Program-made: the position numbers and the translations under genes | Assembly: GCA_015488325.1 (NCBI GenBank) | Contig: WFOA01000105.1 | Coordinates: forward strand, 1-46,696 | DNA length: 46,696 bases | Reading direction: 5' to 3' | Origin: Acidimicrobiia bacterium | GTDB taxonomy: Bacteria > Actinomycetota > Acidimicrobiia > Spongiisociales > ZC4RG35 | Notes under the pieces: model-generated | Told to the model about the DNA's origin: nothing | Database searches by the model: none | The model's input: only the letters and a program-made list of their open reading frames with translations | Part shown: positions 22,283 to 36,867 of the stretch, piece after piece | Layout of the letters: the number at the start of each line of letters is the position of its first letter | How positions within the stretch are numbered: position 1 is the stretch's first letter

Positions 22283-22405
22283 ATTCCGTGGTGAGATTTC
22301 GCGCACTGGGCCGGTGGCCCCGGCGGGTGAGGTGCGATCCCCCGATGGGGGGCTGGCCCGGCGACGGTCCGTGCCCTACGTTGGTGCCCCCGACGGAGAC
22401 ACGCT

Positions 22406-23308
22406 ATGGCTCATCGACGGGTGCTCCTCGCCATCGCCGGGGACAGCGCCGCCGGCAAGACGACGATCAGCGACGGCCTGGCCGAGATCATCGGCCGAGA
22501 CCGGGTGACGGTGGTGTGCTCCGACGACTACCACAAGTACGGCAGGAAGGCCCGGGCCGAACGCGACATCACCCCGCTCCACCCCGACTGCAACTATCTC
22601 GACATCCTCGCCCAACACCTCGAACTCCTCCGAGCGGGTGAACCGATCCTCAAGCCCGTCTACAACCATTCCTACGGGGAGCTCGACCCGCCCGAATACG
22701 TCGAGGCTCGGGACATCATCGTCGTCGAGGGCCTCCATCCGTTGGCGGAGCGTCGACTCCGACAGGTCTTCGACGTGAAGGTGTTCCTCGATCCGCCCCT
22801 CGAGCTGCGGACCCGCTGGAAGATCAGACGCGACGTGGCCAAACGGGGATACACCCCCGACGAGGTGCGGGCGGCCATGCAGCGACGGGAAGCCGACTCG
22901 AAGGCCTTCATCGCACCCCAGCGGGCCTTCGCCGACATCGTGGTGACCTTCTACGAGGGCGAGGGCAGGGCCGGAGACGACGAACACCTCGACGTCCGAC
23001 TGGTCCTTCGGCCCACCCTCGCCCACCCGAACCTGGAGCACCTCCTCCCCCCCGACCACGGTCCGATCCGCCAGCGGCTGGGACGTGACGAAGGCCGTCC
23101 CGTCGACTTCCTCGAGATCGACGGTTCGGCGCCAGGCGAGGAGATCCGGCGGCTCGAAGACGCCATCTACGCCCATTTCTGGGGCGACCGGAACGCCATG
23201 CCGCCCGCCGTGGGGCGGGTCGACGAACGCCACAGCGGGCCCCTTGCCCTCACCCAGCTCCTCATCGCGGGGCACGTCCTCACGGCACGGTCGCTGGTGG
23301 CCGCCTGA
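22406..23308 (+). CDS. prk: Phosphoribulokinase
   Basis: LLAIAGDSAAGKTTISDGLAEI; YNHSYGELDPPEYVEARDIIVVEGLHPL. Confidence 0.92.
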   Translation: MAHRRVLLAIAGDSAAGKTTISDGLAEIIGRDRVTVVCSDDYHKYGRKARAERDITPLHPDCNYLDILAQHLELLRAGEPILKPVYNHSYGELDPPEYVEARDIIVVEGLHPLAERRLRQVFDVKVFLDPPLELRTRWKIRRDVAKRGYTPDEVRAAMQRREADSKAFIAPQRAFADIVVTFYEGEGRAGDDEHLDVRLVLRPTLAHPNLEHLLPPDHGPIRQRLGRDEGRPVDFLEIDGSAPGEEIRRLEDAIYAHFWGDRNAMPPAVGRVDERHSGPLALTQLLIAGHVLTARSLVAA

Positions 23309-23333: not shown

Positions 23334-24014
23334 TCACGCCGCTCCGGCTTCGGCCTCCAACACGTGGCGGAGCTGGCGTACCGCGGCGGCCTTGCCGTCG
23401 GGATGGCCGAGGATGCCCGAGCCGGAGATGAACACGTCGGCGCCGGCCCGGGCGGCGTCGCCGATCGTGTGGGCTTTGATCCCCCCGTCCACTTCGAGCC
23501 GGGCGGTGGAGCCGATCTGGTCGAGCATCGCTCGGGCCCGGGCGATCTTGGGGAGCATCGAGCGGATGAAGGACTGTCCGCCGAAGCCGGGGTTGACCGT
23601 CATGATGAGGAGCAGGTCGATGTCGCCCAACACGTCGCGGATCGCCTCCACAGGTGTGGCCGGGTTGATGGCCACCGCCGGTTTCGCCCCTGCTTCGGCG
23701 ATCAGCCCCAGGGTCCGGTGGAGATGCACGGTGGCTTCGGCGTGGACGATCACCGTGTCGCACCCGGCCCGGACGTATTCGGAGACGTAACGTTCGGGCT
23801 CTTCGATCATCAGATGGGCTTCGAAGGGGAGGTCGACACGTTCCCGACCCGCCGCCACGACGTCGGCGCCGAAGGTGAGGTTGGGGACGAACCGTCCGTC
23901 CATGACGTCCCACTGCACGCCGTCGACACCCGCCGCCTCCAGCTCGGCGAGTTCGTCTCCGAGTCGCATGTAGTCGGCGCCGAGGACCGACGCCACGATC
24001 TGGTGTCGGGTCAT
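23334..24014 (-). CDS. rpe: Ribulose-phosphate 3-epimerase
   Basis: IVASVLGADYMRLGDELAELEAAGVDGVQWDVMDGRFVPNLTFG; MTVNPGFGGQSFI. Confidence 0.95.
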   Translation of the reverse strand: MTRHQIVASVLGADYMRLGDELAELEAAGVDGVQWDVMDGRFVPNLTFGADVVAAGRERVDLPFEAHLMIEEPERYVSEYVRAGCDTVIVHAEATVHLHRTLGLIAEAGAKPAVAINPATPVEAIRDVLGDIDLLLIMTVNPGFGGQSFIRSMLPKIARARAMLDQIGSTARLEVDGGIKAHTIGDAARAGADVFISGSGILGHPDGKAAAVRQLRHVLEAEAGAA

Positions 24015-25021
24015 GCCGCCTCGTCCATGCCGGGATCGTAGGCGCCTCGGGCGGCGGCCGCGTTCGCTCGGGCCCGGTGCAGCAGCCGCCGTTGAGCGTC
24101 TTCGACCCGGCTCGGATCCCCCGCCCAGGTCTCGAGGGCTGCCCGCTGGAGCGCCCGCCCGTAGGAGAAGGTGAGGGTCCAGGGTGCATCGGGGAAGAGG
24201 CGGTTCATGGCGTCGAGCCGGACGGTGGCGTCGATGTCGGACTGTCCGCCGGACAGGAAGGCGATCCCTGCGACGTTGGGGGGGACCACCTCACCCAACG
24301 TCTCCACCGTCGCCCGGGCCACCTCGGCGGGCGAGGGCCGCTCGTCGGAGTCGAGCCCGGGCACGACCATGTTCGATTTGAGGACGATCCCCGACAGGTC
24401 GACCCGGTGGGTCGACAGTTCGGCGAACACCCGGCCGAGGACCCGGGAGGTCGCCTCGGCGCAGGCGCGAAGGCCGTGGTCGCCGTCCATCAGCACCTCG
24501 GGTTCGACGATGGGCGTCATGTCGGCCTCCTGGCAGAGGGCGGCGTAGCGGGCGAGGGCGTGGGCGTTCGCCTCGATGCACCCCCGGGAGGGTCGACTCT
24601 GGCCGACGGCGATCACCGCCCGCCATTTGGCGAAGCGGGCGCCCAGGTCTGCGTATTCGGCGAGGCGTTCCCGCAGGCCGTCGAGGCCTTCGGTGACCTT
24701 CTCGCCGGGGTGGCGGGCCAGCGCCGTGGTGCCGATGTCGACCTTGATCCCGGGGACGACCCCGGCGTACGCGAGGACCTGGGGCATGGGCGTTCCGTCG
24801 TCGGTGGTCTGGCGGATCGTCTCGTCGTAGAGGATCGCAGCCGAGATGTACTCGCCGAGCCCGGGGGTGGTGACGAGCAGCTGGCGGTAGCGGCGGCGCT
24901 GCTCTTCGGTTTGGTCGATGCCGAGGGCGGCGAAACGGCGGTTGCAGGTGCCGTTGCTCTCGTCCATGGCGAGGATGCCTCTGCCGGGGGCGACCATGCG
25001 GCGCGCCGTCTCCCTGTGCAT
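24011..25021 (-). CDS. Class I fructose-bisphosphate aldolase
   Basis: GRGILAMDESNGTCNRRFAALGI; FLSGGQSDIDATVRLDAMN; LTFSYGRALQ. Confidence 0.93.
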   Translation of the reverse strand: MHRETARRMVAPGRGILAMDESNGTCNRRFAALGIDQTEEQRRRYRQLLVTTPGLGEYISAAILYDETIRQTTDDGTPMPQVLAYAGVVPGIKVDIGTTALARHPGEKVTEGLDGLRERLAEYADLGARFAKWRAVIAVGQSRPSRGCIEANAHALARYAALCQEADMTPIVEPEVLMDGDHGLRACAEATSRVLGRVFAELSTHRVDLSGIVLKSNMVVPGLDSDERPSPAEVARATVETLGEVVPPNVAGIAFLSGGQSDIDATVRLDAMNRLFPDAPWTLTFSYGRALQRAALETWAGDPSRVEDAQRRLLHRARANAAAARGAYDPGMDEAA

Positions 25022-25123
25022 GTGCTCCTCCCTGTTCGGCGTCGCCGGAAACGTATCGGCGGGCGGGGAGGTCGCCCATCCCGGAGTCGGGGGATCGGCG
25101 CTCACCGAGTCGGGGAGGTCGGT

Positions 25124-26047
25124 TCACGGCTTCGGTGATGGTCCCCGATGCTCGATGGTGGGGTGGCGCTCCGACGCCCACGACATGAGGGCGATGCGGA
25201 AGGCTTCGGCGGGGGCGGAGAGATGCCGGTCGGTCCGCCACACCACGTGCCAGCGTCGGTTCAGCGGGAACCCGGGAAGGGGCACCGACACCAGCGTCCC
25301 CCGTTCCAGGTCTTCTTCCACCGCCAGTTGGGGCATCACCGCACAGCCCAGGCCTGAACGGGCTGCGGCCCGGATCGCACCGTTGGAGCCGAGGGTCATG
25401 GTCCGGGGCTCGATGCCGCTTTGGGCGAGGGCCTCTTCGACGGCGGCCCGGGATCCGGAGCCTTCTTCCCGGATGAGCAGGGTGGCGTCGGCGAGGGCGG
25501 CGACGTCGTCTGCTCGGGCGAGGGGATGGGAGGGCGAGCAGACGAGGTGGAGGGGGTTCTCCAGGAACGGTTCGGCGTGGAGGTCGAGACCGCCGGGCGG
25601 TCGCCCCATGACGGCGAGGTCGACGACACCGTCGACGAGGTGCCGTCGGGCGTGGGCCCGGTTGGTGACTACGAGGCGGATGTCGACGGCCGGGTGTCGG
25701 GCGTGGTACCGCTCGAGGACTTCGGGGATCATGTGTTCCCCGGCGGTGGTGACGGCGAGGAGGCGGAGCCGTCCGGCCAGCTCCTCGCCCAGGTCGACGA
25801 CGGCCTGACGCGCCTCGTCGAGGAGGCCGAGGATCCGGGTGGCGTACCGGTAGGCGGTCTCCCCGGCGGGGGTGAGGCTCCGGGCCTTGCCGCGGCCGCT
25901 GAACAGGGGGCTTCCCAGCTCCCGCTCGAGGGCACGGAGGGTGGCGGACACCGACGGTTGGGAGACGAACAGGTGGCCGGCCGCCCCGGTGACGCTGCCG
26001 GCACGGACCACTTCGACGAGGACTTCGAGCTGCCGGAGGGTGATCAC
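25124..26047 (-). CDS. cbbR: LysR-family regulator, probable CbbR
   Basis: ITLRQLEVLVEVVRAGSVTGAAGHLFVSQPSVSATLRALERELG; divergent from cbbL; GTG start 26047. Confidence 0.85.
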   Translation of the reverse strand: MITLRQLEVLVEVVRAGSVTGAAGHLFVSQPSVSATLRALERELGSPLFSGRGKARSLTPAGETAYRYATRILGLLDEARQAVVDLGEELAGRLRLLAVTTAGEHMIPEVLERYHARHPAVDIRLVVTNRAHARRHLVDGVVDLAVMGRPPGGLDLHAEPFLENPLHLVCSPSHPLARADDVAALADATLLIREEGSGSRAAVEEALAQSGIEPRTMTLGSNGAIRAAARSGLGCAVMPQLAVEEDLERGTLVSVPLPGFPLNRRWHVVWRTDRHLSAPAEAFRIALMSWASERHPTIEHRGPSPKP

Positions 26048-26082
26048 CAGACCAAAGTACATAAAGAAGTGTTGATGGACAA
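26048..26082 (-). promoter_or_regulatory. cbbR promoter: TTGTCC-17-TACTTT, 6 nt before GTG
   Basis: Hexamers read in the AT-rich cbbR/cbbL intergenic region. Confidence 0.6.
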
Positions 26083-26090
26083 ATAGAAAA

Positions 26091-26100
26091 CAATCGATTG
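26091..26100. promoter_or_regulatory. Palindrome CAATCGATTG between cbbR and cbbL; candidate regulator site
   Basis: Perfect 10-bp dyad in the divergent intergenic region. Confidence 0.4.
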
Positions 26101-26150
26101 GAACTTGCGTCTTCGGGGGGATACGTTGAGCGTCCCTGGCAGGAGGACCG

Positions 26151-27584
26151 ATGACCGACCAGAGACTCTTCGACGCCGGAGTGAAGCCCTACCGTGACAC
26201 CGGGTACTACGACCCCGACTACGTCCCGGCGGAGACGGACGTGCTCGCCGCCTTCCGTCTCACCCCCCAACCCGGCGTGCCGCCCGAAGAGGCAGGGGCC
26301 GCCGTCGCCGGAGAGTCGTCGACCGCCACCTGGACGACCGTGTGGTCCGACTACATGGTGGACCTCGACCGGTACAAGGCGAAGTGCTATCGGCTCGATC
26401 CCGTACCCGGACGTGACGGCCAGTACATCGCCTACATCGCCTACGACCTGGACCTCTTCGAAGAAGGTTCGATCGCCAATCTGGCGTCGTCGATCGTCGG
26501 CAACGTCTTCGGGTTCAAAGCCCTGCGCGCCCTGCGCCTGGAGGACCTCCGCCTGCCCGTCGCCTACCTCAAGACCTTCCCCGGTCCACCCAACGGCATC
26601 CAGGTGGAACGGGACCGGCTCGGCAAGTACGGGCGTCCCATCCTGGGGGCGACCATCAAGCCGAAACTCGGGTTGTCGCCCAAGATGTACGCCCGGGCGG
26701 TGTACGAATGCCTGCGGGGCGGGCTCGACTTCACCAAAGACGACGAGAACATCAACTCCCAGCCGTTCATGCGATGGCGGCACCGGTTCGAGTTCGTCGC
26801 CGAAGCGATCCGCAAAGCCGAAGAGGAGACCGGAGAACGCAAAGGCCACTACCTGAACGTCACCGCCCCCGACGTCGAACAGATGCTGGAACGGGCCGAG
26901 TTCGCCAAGGAATGCTCTCCGATCATCATGGTCGACTTCCTCACGGTGGGGTTCAGCGCCTTCCAGACCCTCTCGAACTGGTGCCGCCGCAACGGCGTGC
27001 TCCTGCATCTGCACCGGGCGATGCACGCCGTCAGCACCCGCCAGCGCGACCACGGGATCCACTGGAGGGTGTACGCCAAATGGGCGCGGATGATCGGAGG
27101 GGACCACGTCCACAACGGGACCGTGGTCGGCAAGCTGGAGGGCGACCGGAACGCCACCGTCGCCATCAACGACCTGCTGCGTGAAGACTTCGTCCCCGTC
27201 GACCCGGCACGCGGGATCTACTTCGACCAGCCGTGGGCGTCGATCCCGGCGATGTTCCCGGTCGCGTCAGGTGGCATCCACGCAGGCCAGGTCCCCGAAC
27301 TCGTCTCCATCTTCGGCGACGACGTGGTCCTCCAGTTCGGAGGCGGCACCCTCGGCCACCCCCGAGGCAACGCCGCCGGCGCGACGGCGAACCGGGTGGC
27401 GGTCGACGCCGTCGTCAAGGCCCGCAACGAAGGTCGGGACATCCTCGCCGACGGGCCGGCGATCCTCGAAGAGGCCGCCCGTCGGTCCCCGGAGCTGGCG
27501 GACGCCCTCGACCTGTGGGGCGGGGTGACCTTCGAAGAGGCCGACCCCACCAACGTGCTGGACCCCGTGGAGGTGTCACGATGA
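26151..27584 (+). CDS. cbbL: RuBisCO large subunit, Form I-like
   Basis: [79 protein letters not shown]; catalytic residues all present. Confidence 0.97.
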
Positions 27585-27883
27585 CGACCCGACTCGAGAC
27601 GTTCTCGTTCCTGCCGCCCCTGGACCGCCGCGACGTACGGCTTCAGATCGAGCACATCCTCGCCGAGGGGTGGCTGCCGATCGTCGAATACGGCACCGAC
27701 CCCACCCAGTTCCTGTGGTCGTGGTGGAAGCTGCCCCTCATGGAAGCGACCGTCGAACAGGTGGTGGAGGAGATCGACGCCTGCGCCCACGCGCATCCCG
27801 ACGCCTACGTCCGGCTGGTCGGGTGGGACGCCGCGGGCGGGCAGCGTCCCCGGATCGCTTTTGTCGTCCGTCGACCACGATGA
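27581..27883 (+). CDS. cbbS: RuBisCO small subunit
   Basis: [32 protein letters not shown]...[12 protein letters not shown] overlap with cbbL. Confidence 0.95.
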
Positions 27884-29064
27884 ACGAACCACCCGCCGAC
27901 CAACTCAGCCGCGACGTCCTCCGGGTGCTCCCGGGCATCATCGAAATCCTGTCCCGGAGCGGACGTCGGGAAGGGCTGTTGGCTTCGGTGGTCGATCTCA
28001 TCCTCGACGCCACCGGAGCGGACGCCTGCTTCCTCCACCGTTGGGATCCCGAACAGCGGCACCTCCGGATGATCGCCGCCAGCCAGCCCTACGACGAACT
28101 GGTCGGCCGGATCGAGCTGGCGGAAGGTGAAGGAGTGGCGGGCTGGGTGGCGAAACACCGCCTGCCGGTGGTGATCACCCGAGACAAATGGTCCGACCCC
28201 CGCTACAAGTACATCCCCGAGCTCGGCGGAGACCGGTACACGTCGATGGTGTCGCTCCCCGTCGCCTCGGCCAGAGGCCGGCTGATGGGGGTCCTCAACC
28301 TCCACACCGTCGACGAACGGGAATTCACCAGGGACGACCTGGAGTTTCTCACCGCCACCGCCGCCCTGGTGGGAGCCCACCTCGAGACCGAAGACCTCAT
28401 CGAAGCGACCCTGGCGAAGGAGGCCGAGTTGGAGGCGCTCGTCCAGAGCACCCTGTCGGCCCAGGAGACCGAACGGCGGCGGGTGGCGACGGAGATCCAC
28501 GACGGAGTCACCCAGCTCGTCGTCGCCGCCCTGTACCGCCTCCGGGCGGCTCAGACCCTCGTCGGCGGCGACCATCCGGCTGCCGGCGAGCTCGCCACCG
28601 CCGTCGGGCTCCTCGAAGACGCCGAAGAGGAGTCTCGCCGGGCGATCCGCCGTCTCCGCCCTCCCGTCCTCGACGACCTCGGGCTGGCCGCCGCCCTGCG
28701 GGAACTGGCCCAGGAGGCGTCGGAGGCCGTCGACGTGGAGGTGCGGGCCCCCCACCAGCTTCAGCTCGCCGACACCGTCGAGCTTGTCCTGTACCGGGTC
28801 GCCCAGGAGGCTCTCCGGAACGTGGCGAAACACGCCCGGGCCGACCGGGTGACCATCTCGGTGGACGTCGACGACGACGAAGTGCACATGGCGGTGGTCG
28901 ACGACGGATGCGGCTTCGACGTGGCGGAAGCCTTCGCCGTCCGGGAAGGTGCCAGCTACGGGATGGCGGGGATGCGGGAACGGGTCGAGATGGTGGGGGG
29001 CGCGTTCCGGGTGGCGAGTGAGCCGGGGAAGGGAGCGAGGATCGATGTGCGGATTCCCCACTGA
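27880..29064 (+). CDS. GAF-domain sensor histidine kinase (HisKA_3/NarL-type)
   Basis: GAF region (ATGADACFLHRWD...VAGWVAKHRLPVVI), ERRRVATEIHDGVTQLVVAALYRL, HATPase DDGCGFD; ATGA overlap with cbbS. Confidence 0.93.
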   Translation: MNEPPADQLSRDVLRVLPGIIEILSRSGRREGLLASVVDLILDATGADACFLHRWDPEQRHLRMIAASQPYDELVGRIELAEGEGVAGWVAKHRLPVVITRDKWSDPRYKYIPELGGDRYTSMVSLPVASARGRLMGVLNLHTVDEREFTRDDLEFLTATAALVGAHLETEDLIEATLAKEAELEALVQSTLSAQETERRRVATEIHDGVTQLVVAALYRLRAAQTLVGGDHPAAGELATAVGLLEDAEEESRRAIRRLRPPVLDDLGLAAALRELAQEASEAVDVEVRAPHQLQLADTVELVLYRVAQEALRNVAKHARADRVTISVDVDDDEVHMAVVDDGCGFDVAEAFAVREGASYGMAGMRERVEMVGGAFRVASEPGKGARIDVRIPH

Positions 29065-29713
29065 GAAGCTTCGGATCGTGGTGGTCGACGACCACCAGAT
29101 GGTCCGGGACGGCCTCGTGGCGATGGTCGGAGCCGTGCCCGAACTCGAGGTCGTCGGCACCGCCTCCGACGGGGACGGCGCCCTCAGCCTGATCGCCGGG
29201 ACGTCCCCCGACGTGGCGTTGGTCGACGTGAGCCTGCGGGGGGAGAGCGGACTGGACCTCTGCCGGCGGATCGTCGCCGACCACCCGGACACGGCGGTGG
29301 TCTGCCTCACCGTCTACGACCAGGAGCAGTACCTGTTCGAGGCGCTGCGGGTCGGGGCGCGGGGATACCTGCTGAAACGGGTCACCGCCGAGGCGCTCCG
29401 CGACGCGTTGACGGCGGTGAAGGCCGGGGAGATCGTCGTCGATCCGCTCCTGTCGGGGAGGATCGCGCAGGTGGCGGCCCACAGTGAAGCCCACGGGCTG
29501 TACTGGCCGGGGATGCACTATGGGCTCACCAAACGGGAGGCCGAGGTGCTCCAGGTGGTGTCCGAAGGCTATTCGAATCGGGAGATCGCCGAAGCCCTGT
29601 ACGTCTCCGAGGAGACGGTGAAGAGCCACCTCAAATCCCTCTACCGGAAGCTGTCGGTCTCCGACCGTGCGGAGGCGATCGCCTTGGCGCTCCGGGAAGG
29701 GCTGGTCCGCTGA
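29045..29713 (+). CDS. NarL/FixJ-family response regulator
   Basis: RIVVVDDHQMVRDGLVAMVG; LTKREAEVLQVVSEGYSNREIAEALYVSEETVKSHLKSLYRKL; 20-nt overlap with kinase. Confidence 0.95.
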   Translation: MCGFPTEKLRIVVVDDHQMVRDGLVAMVGAVPELEVVGTASDGDGALSLIAGTSPDVALVDVSLRGESGLDLCRRIVADHPDTAVVCLTVYDQEQYLFEALRVGARGYLLKRVTAEALRDALTAVKAGEIVVDPLLSGRIAQVAAHSEAHGLYWPGMHYGLTKREAEVLQVVSEGYSNREIAEALYVSEETVKSHLKSLYRKLSVSDRAEAIALALREGLVR

Positions 29714-31951: not shown

Positions 31952-34900
31952 TCAGCTACACCCGGTCGTGTCCCCGCAGTTGAGGCACTTGTAGCAGGTG
32001 CCGTTGCGGATGGTGATGTGTCCGCAGGTGGGACAGAGGGGGGCGTCGCCCATCATCTCGCCGAGGGCCGCCTGGGTGGAGGCGGTGGTGGCCGCCGCCG
32101 TTCCGTTGCCGTTTGCCGGTGCCGGCGCCACCGGGACCGGCTGAGCCGGTGGGGTTCCCGGCCCCCGACCGACCGACGCCGGGGAGTCGGCGAACTCGGC
32201 GGCCTCTTTCACCGCTTCCACCGCCGCTTCGGCGTCGGCGTCGTCCAGGTTGAGCTGCACCCCGGCTTCGACGGCGATCCCCTTCGGGGGCTCGGGCAGC
32301 GTCCCCGCCCGGTTGGGCGGCACCTGCGCCAGGTCGTCACGGTGCAGGTATTCGATGGCGAGGGCCCGGAACACGTAGTCGATGATCGAGTTGGCCATCT
32401 TGATGTTCGGGTGGCCCTCCACCATGCCTCGAGGCTCGAACGTCTGGAACGTGAACGTGTCCACGAACTCTTCCAGGGGAACGCCGAACTGGAGACCTTT
32501 GGAGACGGCGATGGCGAACGACGCCAGCACCCCCCTGAGGGTCGCACCCTCTTTGGCGAGGTCGATGAAGATCTCCCCGAGGGTGCCGTCCTCGTATTCG
32601 CCGGTTCGCAGGAACACCTTGTGACCTCCGATCCGGGCCTCCTGGGTCCAGCCTCGCCGCCGGGCGGGCAGCAGGAACCGGGGTGGGGCCATGCCGGCGG
32701 CGTAGGCCTGGGTGGGGGAGATCCCCGCCGGGATCCGGCCCCAGGCGATGTCCCGTTCGGTCTCCATCGCCGCCGTCATCTCGGCGCTGTCCTCCTCCTG
32801 CTCGTCCGCCTCCTCGGAGGTCGCCGACAGCGGCTGGCTCGCCTTCGAACCGTCCCGGTACAGGGCCATCGCCTTCAGGCCCAGCTCCGCCGACATCCGG
32901 TAGGCGTCTTCGATGTCTTCGACGGTGGCCTCGTTCGGCATGTTGATCGTCTTCGAGATCGCCCCGGAGATGAACGGCTGGGCGGCCGCCATCATCTTGA
33001 TATGGCCGGCGTAGTGGATGAACCGCTGTCCGTAGCGTCCGTTCTTGTTGGCCGTGTCGAACACGGGGAGGTGTTCGGGGGCCAGGTGCGGAGCCCCTTC
33101 GATGGTCTGGCGTCCGCAGATGTGGTCGTTGGCCGCCTGGATCTCCTCGGCGCCGAACCCGAGGGCGGCCAGCAGGTCGAATCCGGGATCCAGATACTCC
33201 TCTTCCGAGAAGCCGAGCCGCCGCAGCAGGTCCTCTCCCAGGGTGTAGACGTTGAAGGCGTGACGAAGCTCGAACACCCCGGGCAGCACGTTCTCCAAGC
33301 GTTCGAGGTCGGCGGCGGTGAAGCCCTTCGCCGCCAGCGTCACCCGGTTGATGTGGGGGGCACCGTCGAGGGACGAGGTGCCGCCGATGTAGGTGACGAT
33401 GTCGGCGATCTGATCTTCGGTGTAGCCGAGGTGGCGTAGCGCCGGGGTCACCGACTGGTTGACGATCTTGAAGTACCCGCCTCCCGCCAGCTTCTTGAAC
33501 TTCACTAGGGCGAAGTCGGGCTCCACTCCGGTGGTGTCACAGTCCATCAGCAGCCCGATGGTTCCCGTCGGAGCCAGCACCGTGGCCTGGGCGTTGCGGT
33601 AGCCGTGGCGTTCGCCGAAGGTGAGGGCTTCGTCCCAAGAGCGCCGGGCGGCCTCCAACAGGTCCGGCGGGGCGAGGGCGGGATCGATACCCATCACCTG
33701 GTGGGAGATGCCTTCGTACTCTTCGGGGGAGGCGTCGTAGGCGGCCCGGCGGTGGTTGCGGATCACCCGCAGCATGTGTTCCCGGTTCTCGGCGAAGCGG
33801 GGGAACGGTCCCACCACCGAGGCCATCTCCGCCGAAGTGGCGTAGGCGGTGCCGGTGAGGATCGCGGTGAGGGCCCCGGCCAGGGCCCGGCCTTCGTCGG
33901 AGTCGTAGGCGATGCCCTGGCGCATCAGCAGGGAGCCCAGGTTGGCGTAGCCCAAACCCAGGGTGCGGTAGTCGTAGGAGCCGATGGCGATCTCCTTGGA
34001 GGGGAAGTGGGCCATCGCCACCGAGATCTCCAACACGATCGTCCACAGCCGGATGGCGTGCCGGTAGGAGTCGATGTCGAAGGTCCCGGTCTCGTCGTCG
34101 TAGAACTTGACCAGGTTGAGCGACGCCAGGTTGCAGGCCGTGTCGTCGAGAAACATATATTCCGAGCAGTTGCTCACCAGCACTCCGCCGGCCAGGTAGG
34201 AGTGGTTTTTTGGCTCGGTGAGGTTGTAGGTGGTCTCCCATCCGTCCTCGGTCCGCCGCTTCAGCCTGACCCAGTGGCGGGTGCTGTAGCGGGTGGTCTC
34301 GACGAGCATCTGGTGGAGGATGTCGTCCTTGATCGCCAGCTCGAAGCCGACGGCGTCGAAGAACCGTTCCAGGTCCTTACCCATGACACGGAGATCAGAG
34401 AACGGTCCGCCTCGATAGGTTCGCTCTTCCCCTGACTTGGTCGTGTAATGGAACACTGATCTGCTGCTTGGTCGTAGGTCGTAGATCGACCCGTGAATCC
34501 CAAACGTGTCCAGTAGCTGCTGCACGTCTCGGAGTAGATCCTTGGAGGCACTGCCCAATCCGACGTACCTCGTCGTGTCTCCCCAGCGGACGCAGCCGTC
34601 GGCGTCGTACAGACCCCGAAGAAAGGCGGCCACGATCGGCTTGGGGGCTTCGAAGATGGACCACGGAATGCGCTTGTCCGCTGACCTGGACCGGCTCACC
34701 CCCAGGGCCTCGAAGAACCTGCGGATGGCACCCCGGGTGACCCTGAGCTGGTAGGTGCCGTTGCCCATCTCCACCGGCTTGGGGGCTACCCCGCCGTTGA
34801 GCCCAGCGAGCAGTTCCCGGTGGAGGATCATCGCCGTGTGCTGTTCTTCGGTGGTGCCGTAGATAGTGACCGCGGCGGCGTCGGTGAGCGAGCCGTCGCC

Positions 34901-36550
34901 CACCAGCCAGCCCAGGTAGTGGGCCAGATCCTCGCTCCACTTCTCCGGCAGCCTCACCGCATACTTCCGCGACGACTGCCGCTGATAGGAGGCAGGGTCC
35001 GTGGAGACGGGGATGGCCCAGGAGGCCATTCCGAAATCGATCTCGCGGTCGAGGAGGCGGACCCGATCGCCTTCGGTCAGTTCGTCGGCCCGGACCCAAC
35101 CCCGGTTCGCCGTCCACAGCCGATGGTTCGGGGTGCAGCGGAGCACCCGGCCGTCAGAGAACTCGAGGCGGAGGATCTGGTTGGTTCCCGTCACCATCAC
35201 CTGGGTGGGGCTGGTGAGGTCGATGGTCTCGCTCGGCGCCTCTTCATTCGTGGCGTCGTGGGTGTACACCTGGAAGGTCTCGCCGTCGGCGACACGCTGC
35301 ACCAGCTTCTTGAAGGGGATCAGTCCCTTGTCCGTGGCGATCCTGGTGTCGCCGGTGAAGCAAGGGTTAGATGCCCGGATCCGGCCGCCTTCAGGGCAGG
35401 TGTGCCATTCGTTGATGGTGGTGTCGAACTGGAGGCCGGGGTCGGCGCAGGCCCAGGCGGCGTCGGCGATCCGCCGCCACAGCTCCCGGGCTTTGATCGT
35501 CCTCCTGATCTTGCCGGTGGTCCGTTCGATGAGGGGCCAGTCGGCGTCGTCGTAGACGGCCTGGAGGAACTCCCGGGTGACCCGCACCGAGTTGTTGGAG
35601 TTCTGCCCCGAGACGGTGGCGTAGGCCTCGCCGTTGAAGTCGGCGGGGAAGCCGCCGTATTCGATGAGGATCCTCGCCTTCTCCTCTTCGACCTTCTTCC
35701 AGTCGATGAAGGCCTCGATGTCGGGATGGTCCACGTCGAGGATCACCATCTTGGCGGCCCGGCGGGTGGTGCCGCCCGACTTGATGGCGCCGGCGGCCCG
35801 GTCGCCGATCTTGAGGAACGACATCACCCCCGACGACTTGCCGCCTCCGGACAGCAGCTCGTCCTCGGCCCGGATGGCGCTGAAGTTCGACCCGGCGCCC
35901 GACCCGAACTTGAAGATCCGGGCCTCCCGGACCCACAGGTCCATGATCCCGCCCGGGTTCACCAGGTCGTCTTTGACGGAGAGGATGAAACAGGCGTGGG
36001 GGGCGGGGCGGGAGTAGGAGTCGGGGGACTCCTTCATCTCGCCGGTCTCCTGGTCGACGTACCAGAACCCCTGGGCGGGTCCGGTGAGGCCGTAGGCGTG
36101 GTGGAGGCCGGTGTTGAACCACTGCGGCGAGTTGGGGGCCGCCATCTGGGTGGCGAGCATGTACTTGATCTCGTCTTCGAAGGCTTCGGCGTCGGCGGTG
36201 GAGGCGAAGTAGCCGTAGCGTTCACCCCACCACCGCCACGTCGAGGCGAGGCGGTCGAAGACCTGGCGGGCCGACCGTTCGGGTCCCAGGACCGGGTTGC
36301 CGTCCGCGTCGAGGATCGGGTTGCCGTCGTCGTCGTACTGGGGCACCCCTGCCTTCCGGAAGTACTTCGACACCATGATGTCGGCGGCGACCTGGCTCCA
36401 GTCCGCCGGGATCTCGGCTCCGGTCATCTCGAACACCACCGAACCGTCGGGGTTGGTGATGCGGGTGTCACGCCGGGACCATTCGATGGTGGAGTAGGGA
36501 TCGACTCCTTCGGTGGTGAAGCGACGCTCGATGCGCAGACCCTCTGGCAT
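31952..36550 (-). CDS. nrdJ: Adenosylcobalamin-dependent ribonucleotide reductase with intein
   Basis: RASNP / CSEYMFLDDTACNLASLNL, ATVLAPTGTIGLLMDCDTTGVEPDFALVKFKKL, C-terminal CPTCGHITIRNGTCYKCLNCGDTTGCS; start MPEGLRIERR at 36550. Confidence 0.96.
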   Translation of the reverse strand: MPEGLRIERRFTTEGVDPYSTIEWSRRDTRITNPDGSVVFEMTGAEIPADWSQVAADIMVSKYFRKAGVPQYDDDGNPILDADGNPVLGPERSARQVFDRLASTWRWWGERYGYFASTADAEAFEDEIKYMLATQMAAPNSPQWFNTGLHHAYGLTGPAQGFWYVDQETGEMKESPDSYSRPAPHACFILSVKDDLVNPGGIMDLWVREARIFKFGSGAGSNFSAIRAEDELLSGGGKSSGVMSFLKIGDRAAGAIKSGGTTRRAAKMVILDVDHPDIEAFIDWKKVEEEKARILIEYGGFPADFNGEAYATVSGQNSNNSVRVTREFLQAVYDDADWPLIERTTGKIRRTIKARELWRRIADAAWACADPGLQFDTTINEWHTCPEGGRIRASNPCFTGDTRIATDKGLIPFKKLVQRVADGETFQVYTHDATNEEAPSETIDLTSPTQVMVTGTNQILRLEFSDGRVLRCTPNHRLWTANRGWVRADELTEGDRVRLLDREIDFGMASWAIPVSTDPASYQRQSSRKYAVRLPEKWSEDLAHYLGWLVGDGSLTDAAAVTIYGTTEEQHTAMILHRELLAGLNGGVAPKPVEMGNGTYQLRVTRGAIRRFFEALGVSRSRSADKRIPWSIFEAPKPIVAAFLRGLYDADGCVRWGDTTRYVGLGSASKDLLRDVQQLLDTFGIHGSIYDLRPSSRSVFHYTTKSGEERTYRGGPFSDLRVMGKDLERFFDAVGFELAIKDDILHQMLVETTRYSTRHWVRLKRRTEDGWETTYNLTEPKNHSYLAGGVLVSNCSEYMFLDDTACNLASLNLVKFYDDETGTFDIDSYRHAIRLWTIVLEISVAMAHFPSKEIAIGSYDYRTLGLGYANLGSLLMRQGIAYDSDEGRALAGALTAILTGTAYATSAEMASVVGPFPRFAENREHMLRVIRNHRRAAYDASPEEYEGISHQVMGIDPALAPPDLLEAARRSWDEALTFGERHGYRNAQATVLAPTGTIGLLMDCDTTGVEPDFALVKFKKLAGGGYFKIVNQSVTPALRHLGYTEDQIADIVTYIGGTSSLDGAPHINRVTLAAKGFTAADLERLENVLPGVFELRHAFNVYTLGEDLLRRLGFSEEEYLDPGFDLLAALGFGAEEIQAANDHICGRQTIEGAPHLAPEHLPVFDTANKNGRYGQRFIHYAGHIKMMAAAQPFISGAISKTINMPNEATVEDIEDAYRMSAELGLKAMALYRDGSKASQPLSATSEEADEQEEDSAEMTAAMETERDIAWGRIPAGISPTQAYAAGMAPPRFLLPARRRGWTQEARIGGHKVFLRTGEYEDGTLGEIFIDLAKEGATLRGVLASFAIAVSKGLQFGVPLEEFVDTFTFQTFEPRGMVEGHPNIKMANSIIDYVFRALAIEYLHRDDLAQVPPNRAGTLPEPPKGIAVEAGVQLNLDDADAEAAVEAVKEAAEFADSPASVGRGPGTPPAQPVPVAPAPANGNGTAAATTASTQAALGEMMGDAPLCPTCGHITIRNGTCYKCLNCGDTTGCS
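34169..35362 (-). mobile_element. 398-aa intein with LAGLIDADG homing endonuclease, inserted in NrdJ at SNP/CSEY
   Basis: Block A CFTGDTRIATDKGLIPFKKL; block B ILRLEFSDGRVLRCTPNHRLWT; LAGLIDADG-like YLGWLVGDGSL and FLRGLYDADGCV; C-terminus NHSYLAGGVLVSN followed by C. Confidence 0.95.
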
Positions 36551-36604
36551 TCTCTCTCCCTTTGCCTGCCCGGTGTCCCCCGGGATACGTCTCGATGTTC
36601 CCCC

Positions 36605-36650
36605 GACCACAAGATGTGGGGTCTGATGAGGTTGTGACCACGACATCTGG
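36605..36650. promoter_or_regulatory. Pair of NrdR-box-like sites upstream of nrdJ
   Basis: GACCACAAGATGTGG (36605) and GACCACGACATCTGG (36636), exactly 31 bp apart. Confidence 0.55.
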
Positions 36651-36867
36651 TAGGCGGACCCCAACCTTAATCACATACCTGTAACTACGTCAATGGTATC
36701 TACAAGTCGTTTTTCGCGACCTGACCGCGCGTTCGGTGGGGAAGTCGGCGGGGAAGTGTCCGGCGGACGCCAAGGGGAAGTGGGGGCAACCTAGACGCGT
36801 CCCCGCCGCTCGCGAAAACCCGACAGGTCGATCGTTTTCGCGACTCGGGGGGATACCCTCGGGAGTC

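Follow-up and report, generated by a model that had tools for sequence, protein, structure and literature searches.

A two-component system of Actinomycetota linked to Calvin-cycle genes, with a predicted operator at RuBP-regeneration promoters

Abstract

A two-component system of Actinomycetota may rule the RuBP-regeneration arm of the Calvin cycle (PRK, FBA and rpe) apart from CbbR and RuBisCO, through a TCCCC-N6-GGGGA operator, and may have become hard-wired to RuBisCO in one genus; we regard this statement as a whole as evenly poised between right and wrong. We describe the system from a 46,696-nt stretch of DNA of an Acidimicrobiia bacterium (contig WFOA01000105.1; hereafter the window), in which the genes for a sensor kinase and a response regulator directly follow cbbL and cbbS, and from its counterparts in other actinobacterial genomes.

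Results

Overlapping RuBisCO, kinase and regulator genes

The genes of the operon and the Calvin-cycle genes beside it are the following.

26151 to 27584, + strand: cbbL, form I RuBisCO large subunit of the IB-like clade (domain search, tree)
27581 to 27883, + strand: cbbS, RuBisCO small subunit, 100 aa (domain search)
27880 to 29064, + strand: GAF-HisKA_3-HATPase_c sensor kinase, with H207, N314 and the ATP-lid glycines intact
29045 to 29713, + strand: NarL/LuxR-type response regulator, with D15, D16, D61, K111 and the HTH intact
26048 to 26150: cbbR-cbbL intergenic region, 103 nt, with a candidate CbbR-type dyad inside
25124 to 26047 (open reading frame to 26062), - strand: cbbR, LysR-type, divergent from cbbL (PF00126 and PF03466)
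24011 to 25021, - strand: FBA, class I fructose-bisphosphate aldolase (PF00274 and NF033379 over cut-off)
23334 to 24014, - strand: rpe, ribulose-phosphate 3-epimerase, overlapping FBA by 4 nt (PF00834 and TIGR01163 over cut-off)
22406 to 23308, + strand: PRK, phosphoribulokinase (PF00485; NF005655 at 361.6 bits, cut-off 236)

The first-pass annotation had described cbbL, cbbS, kinase and regulator as chained by two ATGA overlaps (27581-27584 and 27880-27883) and a 20-nt overlap (29045-29064), and all three proved exact to the base. The gene identities hold as well: RuBisCO_large with its N domain, RuBisCO_small, GAF with HisKA_3 and HATPase_c, and Response_reg with GerE were found in the expected proteins. 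PF02788, PF00016 and PF00101 all scored above their cut-offs, as in form I RuBisCO, and in our tree the window cbbL fell in the IB-like clade, alongside sequences from cyanobacteria, Chloroflexota and Dormibacterota. The catalytic His and Asn of the kinase and the receiver Asp and Lys of the GerE-bearing regulator are those of a NarL/HisKA_3-type two-component system, and in structure comparison the kinase model matched DesK-type kinase folds. The divergent LysR-type gene reported beside cbbL was also found, with a corrected start, which is probably GTG 26047 and not 26062 because the former is kept in a second species of the genus, G090. CbbR was the best NCBIfam model for this gene (198.5 bits against a cut-off of 450), and its place and divergent orientation are consistent with CbbR. 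The reported lack of activase genes in the window extends, for cbbX, to the whole 2.89-Mb genome, which gave zero CbbX matches.

Gene order alone is no proof of co-transcription, and a promoter and terminator scan of the operon region detected nothing; cbbLS, kinase and regulator are probably joined on one message. The annotation had gone further and proposed that the kinase and regulator are stoichiometrically coupled to cbbLS. The kinase ATG has no visible Shine-Dalgarno sequence in either the window species or G090, and therefore re-initiation after cbbS would probably yield less kinase than RuBisCO, so that stoichiometric production of kinase with RuBisCO appears unlikely rather than expected.

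Beyond the divergent LysR gene, FBA and rpe (- strand) and PRK (+ strand) complete a compact Calvin-cycle cluster. We moved the FBA start from 25105 to the ATG of MHRETARRM, the residue at which the G090 gene also begins. Elsewhere in the window, a ribonucleotide reductase frame of 1570 aa (31952-36664) appears from its sequence to hold an intein. Both species have a form I Mo-CO dehydrogenase large subunit above the curated cut-off (G000:C158:3643-5913 and G090:C244:9456-11726). A search for NiFe hydrogenase gave none over cut-off, only a single short match below it, and H2 is therefore not an obvious energy source; together these results suggest CO as electron donor. No link between CO dehydrogenase and the kinase was found.

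Conservation within the genus

G090 is the only sister species found to have RuBisCO, and its cbbL-cbbS-kinase-regulator order is identical, with the same ATGA, ATGA and 20-nt overlaps; the arrangement is thus shared by a close relative. The kinases of the two species are 88% and the regulators 94% identical, and at synonymous distances of 0.64 to 0.8 changes per site the dN/dS values were 0.06 (cbbL), 0.25 (cbbS), 0.11 (kinase) and 0.065 (regulator). Because the overlaps are kept and dN/dS is low, we consider the kinase and regulator arrangement to be under selection and not due to chance. The small subunit gene cbbS (27581-27883) diverges far faster than cbbL (73% versus 93% identity; dN/dS 0.25 versus 0.06). 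RuBisCO was absent from all other listed genomes of the host's taxonomic family, and the cluster was therefore probably gained by the host genus.

Across the class and phylum form I loci that we read, the kinase lay directly behind cbbS in just two genomes. The cbbS-then-kinase order sought by neighbourhood search across actinobacteria thus recurred in G090 and in no other actinobacterial form I locus read.

A Calvin-cycle-linked family of kinase and regulator pairs

By sequence comparison, the pair belongs to a well-separated orthologous family of Actinomycetota that is linked to Calvin-cycle genes. We built a regulator profile from 14 sequences and searched 395 genomes of the class and 397 of the phylum, a sample consisting mostly of drafts in which related genomes are not independent. 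Orthologs scored 302 to 368 bits and all other NarL-type regulators at most 230 bits. The window regulator lies above this gap (341 bits, a score that is not independent since its sequence is in the profile) and has the invariant linker W154-P155-G156. Homologous kinases, 33-49% identical with the GAF domain included, and regulators, 45-57% identical, occur in other actinobacterial RuBisCO neighbourhoods. A kinase and regulator upstream of cbbL in a Chloroflexota locus (L004) were rejected as orthologs: identity was only 31-34%, which for the kinase holds for the catalytic part only.

In the window the pair adjoins PRK, rpe, FBA, cbbR and cbbLS, and in 25 of the 34 actinobacterial loci read it was in or near a Calvin-cycle cluster (cbbL, FBA, rpe or PRK). 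Its places in such clusters include the interval from rpe to FBA, the interval from PRK to cbbR, and a position divergent from PRK. A specific tie to cbbLS, as first suggested, is not supported by these loci: the usual neighbours of the pair are rpe, PRK or FBA, and fusion to cbbLS is found in this genus only. Form I cbbL was present in 14 of 15 pair carriers of the class sample (19 of 395 genomes have it) and in 14 of 20 carriers of the phylum sample (30 of 397), a co-occurrence with hypergeometric probabilities of 8e-21 and 2e-13, respectively, with kinship of the genomes ignored. Several form I RuBisCO genomes lack the pair, and six phylum-sample carriers lack cbbL. The carriers without form I cbbL are four mycobacterium-like genomes of one genus, two genomes from a single further family, and the draft genome G344, in which the pair still adjoins rpe and PRK. 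The pair accompanies both RuBisCO clades of the cbbL tree, which argues that it follows the cycle and not one enzyme. When kinase and regulator sequences were concatenated for a tree, 25 pairs formed one clade (support 100/100), all with the regulator gene first (RR-HK); the window and eight relatives fell outside this clade, and all nine have the kinase gene first (HK-RR). The family includes a cultured carrier, G014, taken as Acidimicrobium ferrooxidans ICP-T (PMC3035218).

Several loci had features of their own. A CsoS2-like alpha-carboxysome scaffold gene (L125:5955-8513, genome G225) lies near a pair-bearing IB-like RuBisCO cluster, and one frame of 974 aa in the Calvin-cycle cluster of L132 (1218-4139) fuses transketolase and GlpX-type fructose-bisphosphatase domains. 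In L258 and L259 (genomes G568 and G480) the kinase is preceded by a small gene, whose product is a CBS-domain protein in L258 and, judged by sequence, also in L259.

A predicted operator at PRK and FBA promoters

The dyad TCCCC-N6-GGGGA occurred in upstream regions of seven loci, compared with a maximum of four in shuffled sequences, and in few places of 2.4 Mb of sequence, mostly a short way ahead of the regulator gene. Most of the RR-HK clade has it in that position, including four RuBisCO-less mycobacterium-like genomes. We built a position weight matrix (PWM) from ten dyad sites, none from the window, and compared its scores with those of 335 control regions upstream of other genes in these loci. 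Enrichment was found upstream of FBA (Mann-Whitney U, p 2e-7), of the regulator gene (p 4e-4) and of PRK (p 0.004). All 9 PRK promoters from genomes with an HK-RR-order pair scored 5.3-14.8, and all 13 from RuBisCO genomes without the pair scored at most 3.8. Column-permuted matrices reached the median score of the FBA promoters once in 1000 trials and that of the PRK promoters three times.

Two sites were predicted in the window.

22337 to 22354: putative operator ATCCCCCGATGGGGGGCT of the regulator, 69 nt ahead of the PRK start, the best PWM match in the 46.7 kb
25078 to 25095: putative operator ATCCCGGAGTCGGGGGAT of the regulator, between cbbR and FBA and ahead of FBA-rpe, ranked second among PWM matches in the window

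Less than 1% of the window is taken up by the three Calvin-cycle promoter gaps combined. In G090, the counterpart of the FBA-rpe site is ATCCCGGGAGTGGGGGAT, and the PRK site is weaker (6.6; ATCCCTCCCGGGGGGAAT), its dyad arms being kept and its spacer changed. The motif is not rare in GC-rich DNA: 43 places genome-wide match it with one mismatch, compared with 17 for a control pattern, so that the PRK site alone is modest evidence and the matches are too many for naming further targets. No clear or convincing site was seen at the FBPase and CO dehydrogenase loci of the window genome. An autoregulatory site upstream of the kinase was found in none of eight HK-RR relatives; the kinase gene of the window begins within cbbS.

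The four mycobacterium-like loci (L248-L251; genomes G750, G464, G723 and G691) combine the pair with a strong dyad in genomes that lack form I RuBisCO, and in L249, L250 and L251 the gap ahead of the pair is common to a divergent HAD-family phosphatase gene; a HAD gene of L172, a RuBisCO-bearing relative, likewise has a dyad near its start (site at 1761). In L252 and L253 (genomes G483 and G441, 93% and 95% complete, in which form I RuBisCO was not found), roughly 6 kb separate the pair from a PRK-like gene that has a dyad upstream. The CBS-domain gene of L258 also has the dyad upstream.

We infer that the dyad is the operator of the regulator, an assignment made by co-occurrence only and a statistical prediction. 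It would fail if the dyad served a different factor or formed part of an RNA structure, GC-rich dyads being able to fold into hairpins, and if the targets of the pair lay elsewhere. We think this unlikely: the same dyad precedes the regulator gene outside Calvin-cycle contexts, it lies in divergent promoter gaps and not at 3' ends, and it is absent from the PRK promoters of RuBisCO genomes that lack the pair.

The cbbR-cbbL promoter

The first-pass annotation implied that the regulator acts at the cbb promoter, in dual control of cbbLS with CbbR. The operon that the genes share would fit such action, as would a conserved dyad in the 103-nt gap, CAATCGATTG at 26091-26100, kept in G090 as TAATTCATTA. 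However, this AT-rich dyad, a candidate CbbR-type site, is wholly unlike the motif that tracks the regulator, and the LysR-type CbbR is its simpler owner. The PWM scan predicted no response-regulator site in 26048-26150, and across the family PWM scores were at background upstream of cbbL (p 0.59) and cbbR (p 0.86) relative to the 335 control regions. The predicted sites fall instead at PRK, at FBA and at the regulator's own promoter, and it is improbable that the regulator acts mainly between cbbR and cbbL through a different or weaker site.

Carriers without RuBisCO bear on another reading, in which the pair has a wider regulatory role, in sugar-phosphate or C1 metabolism for instance, and accompanies the Calvin-cycle genes, its co-transcription with cbbLS being incidental. 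Four mycobacterium-like and two other genomes keep the pair without RuBisCO, and in three of the former it adjoins the divergent HAD phosphatase gene; yet co-occurrence and linkage with Calvin-cycle genes are strong under both RuBisCO clades, and among RuBisCO genomes PRK promoters have the site only where the pair exists. We give this reading, too, a low probability. A chance or recent juxtaposition of genes with no regulatory meaning would suit a fusion seen in two species of one genus only, but is very improbable given that three overlaps and low dN/dS were kept over such synonymous divergence.

The signal domain of the kinase

The kinase has one GAF domain (residues 31-167) and, by inspection of its sequence, no membrane segment. 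This domain is nearest in sequence to the GAF domains of PtsP and NifA and nearest in fold to the PtsP GAF domains 3trc and 3ci6 (TM-score 0.89 over the domain; model mean pLDDT 85.7), a likeness that weakly points to a small metabolite rather than a gas or redox signal. A passage of PMC2937029, citing Little and Dixon, states that the Azotobacter NifA GAF domain binds 2-oxoglutarate, and a carbon or nitrogen metabolite is therefore a reasonable first guess, no more. In the family alignment C50 and H142 are invariant and H53 is near-invariant, which leaves room for redox or metal sensing.

Discussion

We lean towards a model in which the pair controls RuBP regeneration through the predicted operator and is slaved to RuBisCO in this genus by sharing the cbbLS message. 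The GAF domain would read an internal, probably metabolite, signal, and the cytosolic kinase would then phosphorylate the regulator. The regulator would bind TCCCC-N6-GGGGA-like sites at the PRK and FBA-rpe promoters and so set the RuBP-regeneration arm; in the RR-HK clade it would also bind the promoter of its own gene. CbbR would act at the cbbLS promoter. With the pair as the last two genes of the cbbLS message in this genus, translated by coupling, CbbR-driven RuBisCO expression would also supply the switch for PRK, FBA and rpe. RuBisCO and the supply of its substrate would then be coupled in feed-forward fashion, with the kinase signal as the gate and with either activation or repression as the mode of control. 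The general proposal of a dedicated two-component control of the Calvin cycle beside CbbR is supported, the pair being present also in the close relative.

If this model is true, control of RuBisCO is separated from control of its substrate supply, and in this genus RuBisCO expression sets the capacity for making its own substrate. With an operator that can be read from sequence, a second dedicated regulator would also make the regulon predictable in new genomes. We found no description of such a Calvin-cycle two-component system in actinobacteria in a mainly open-access literature, and the family of the pair is apparently undescribed so far, although this literature scope makes for weak evidence of novelty.

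Calvin-cycle regulation is known mostly from proteobacteria and cyanobacteria, and for CO2-fixing actinobacteria the LysR-type CbbR is usually considered. Two-component control of cbb genes is known from RegB/RegA and from CbbRRS of Rhodopseudomonas palustris (PMC8307300, PMC6430793). The pair broadly resembles both, but its domains and the position of its genes place it in neither. CbbRRS, three proteins of the cbbI region, is like the pair a two-component system dedicated to Calvin-cycle genes. It reportedly consists of a hybrid kinase and two regulators without a DNA-binding domain, with genes between cbbR and cbbLS. Unlike CbbRRS so described, the pair sits after cbbS, its single NarL-type regulator has a GerE domain, and its kinase is of the GAF-HisKA_3 type. 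RegB/RegA is a global redox system with a membrane kinase and a Fis-type HTH regulator. It (also PrrBA) resembles the pair in exerting two-component control of cbb operons beside CbbR (PMC8307300), whereas the pair has HisKA_3 and GerE domains and cluster-linked genes. Within Actinomycetota, DosS/DosR (DevSR) of mycobacteria likewise combines a GAF-HisKA_3 kinase with a NarL-type regulator. DosS/DosR has two GAF domains, haem and a hypoxia regulon; unlike this tandem-GAF system, the window kinase has one GAF domain, nearest those of PtsP and NifA. MnoS/MnoR of Mycobacterium smegmatis is also an actinobacterial two-component system, for methylotrophic (C1) metabolism; its target is the mno operon, and a single consensus site is present in the genome (PMC11303327), a target other than those predicted for the pair.
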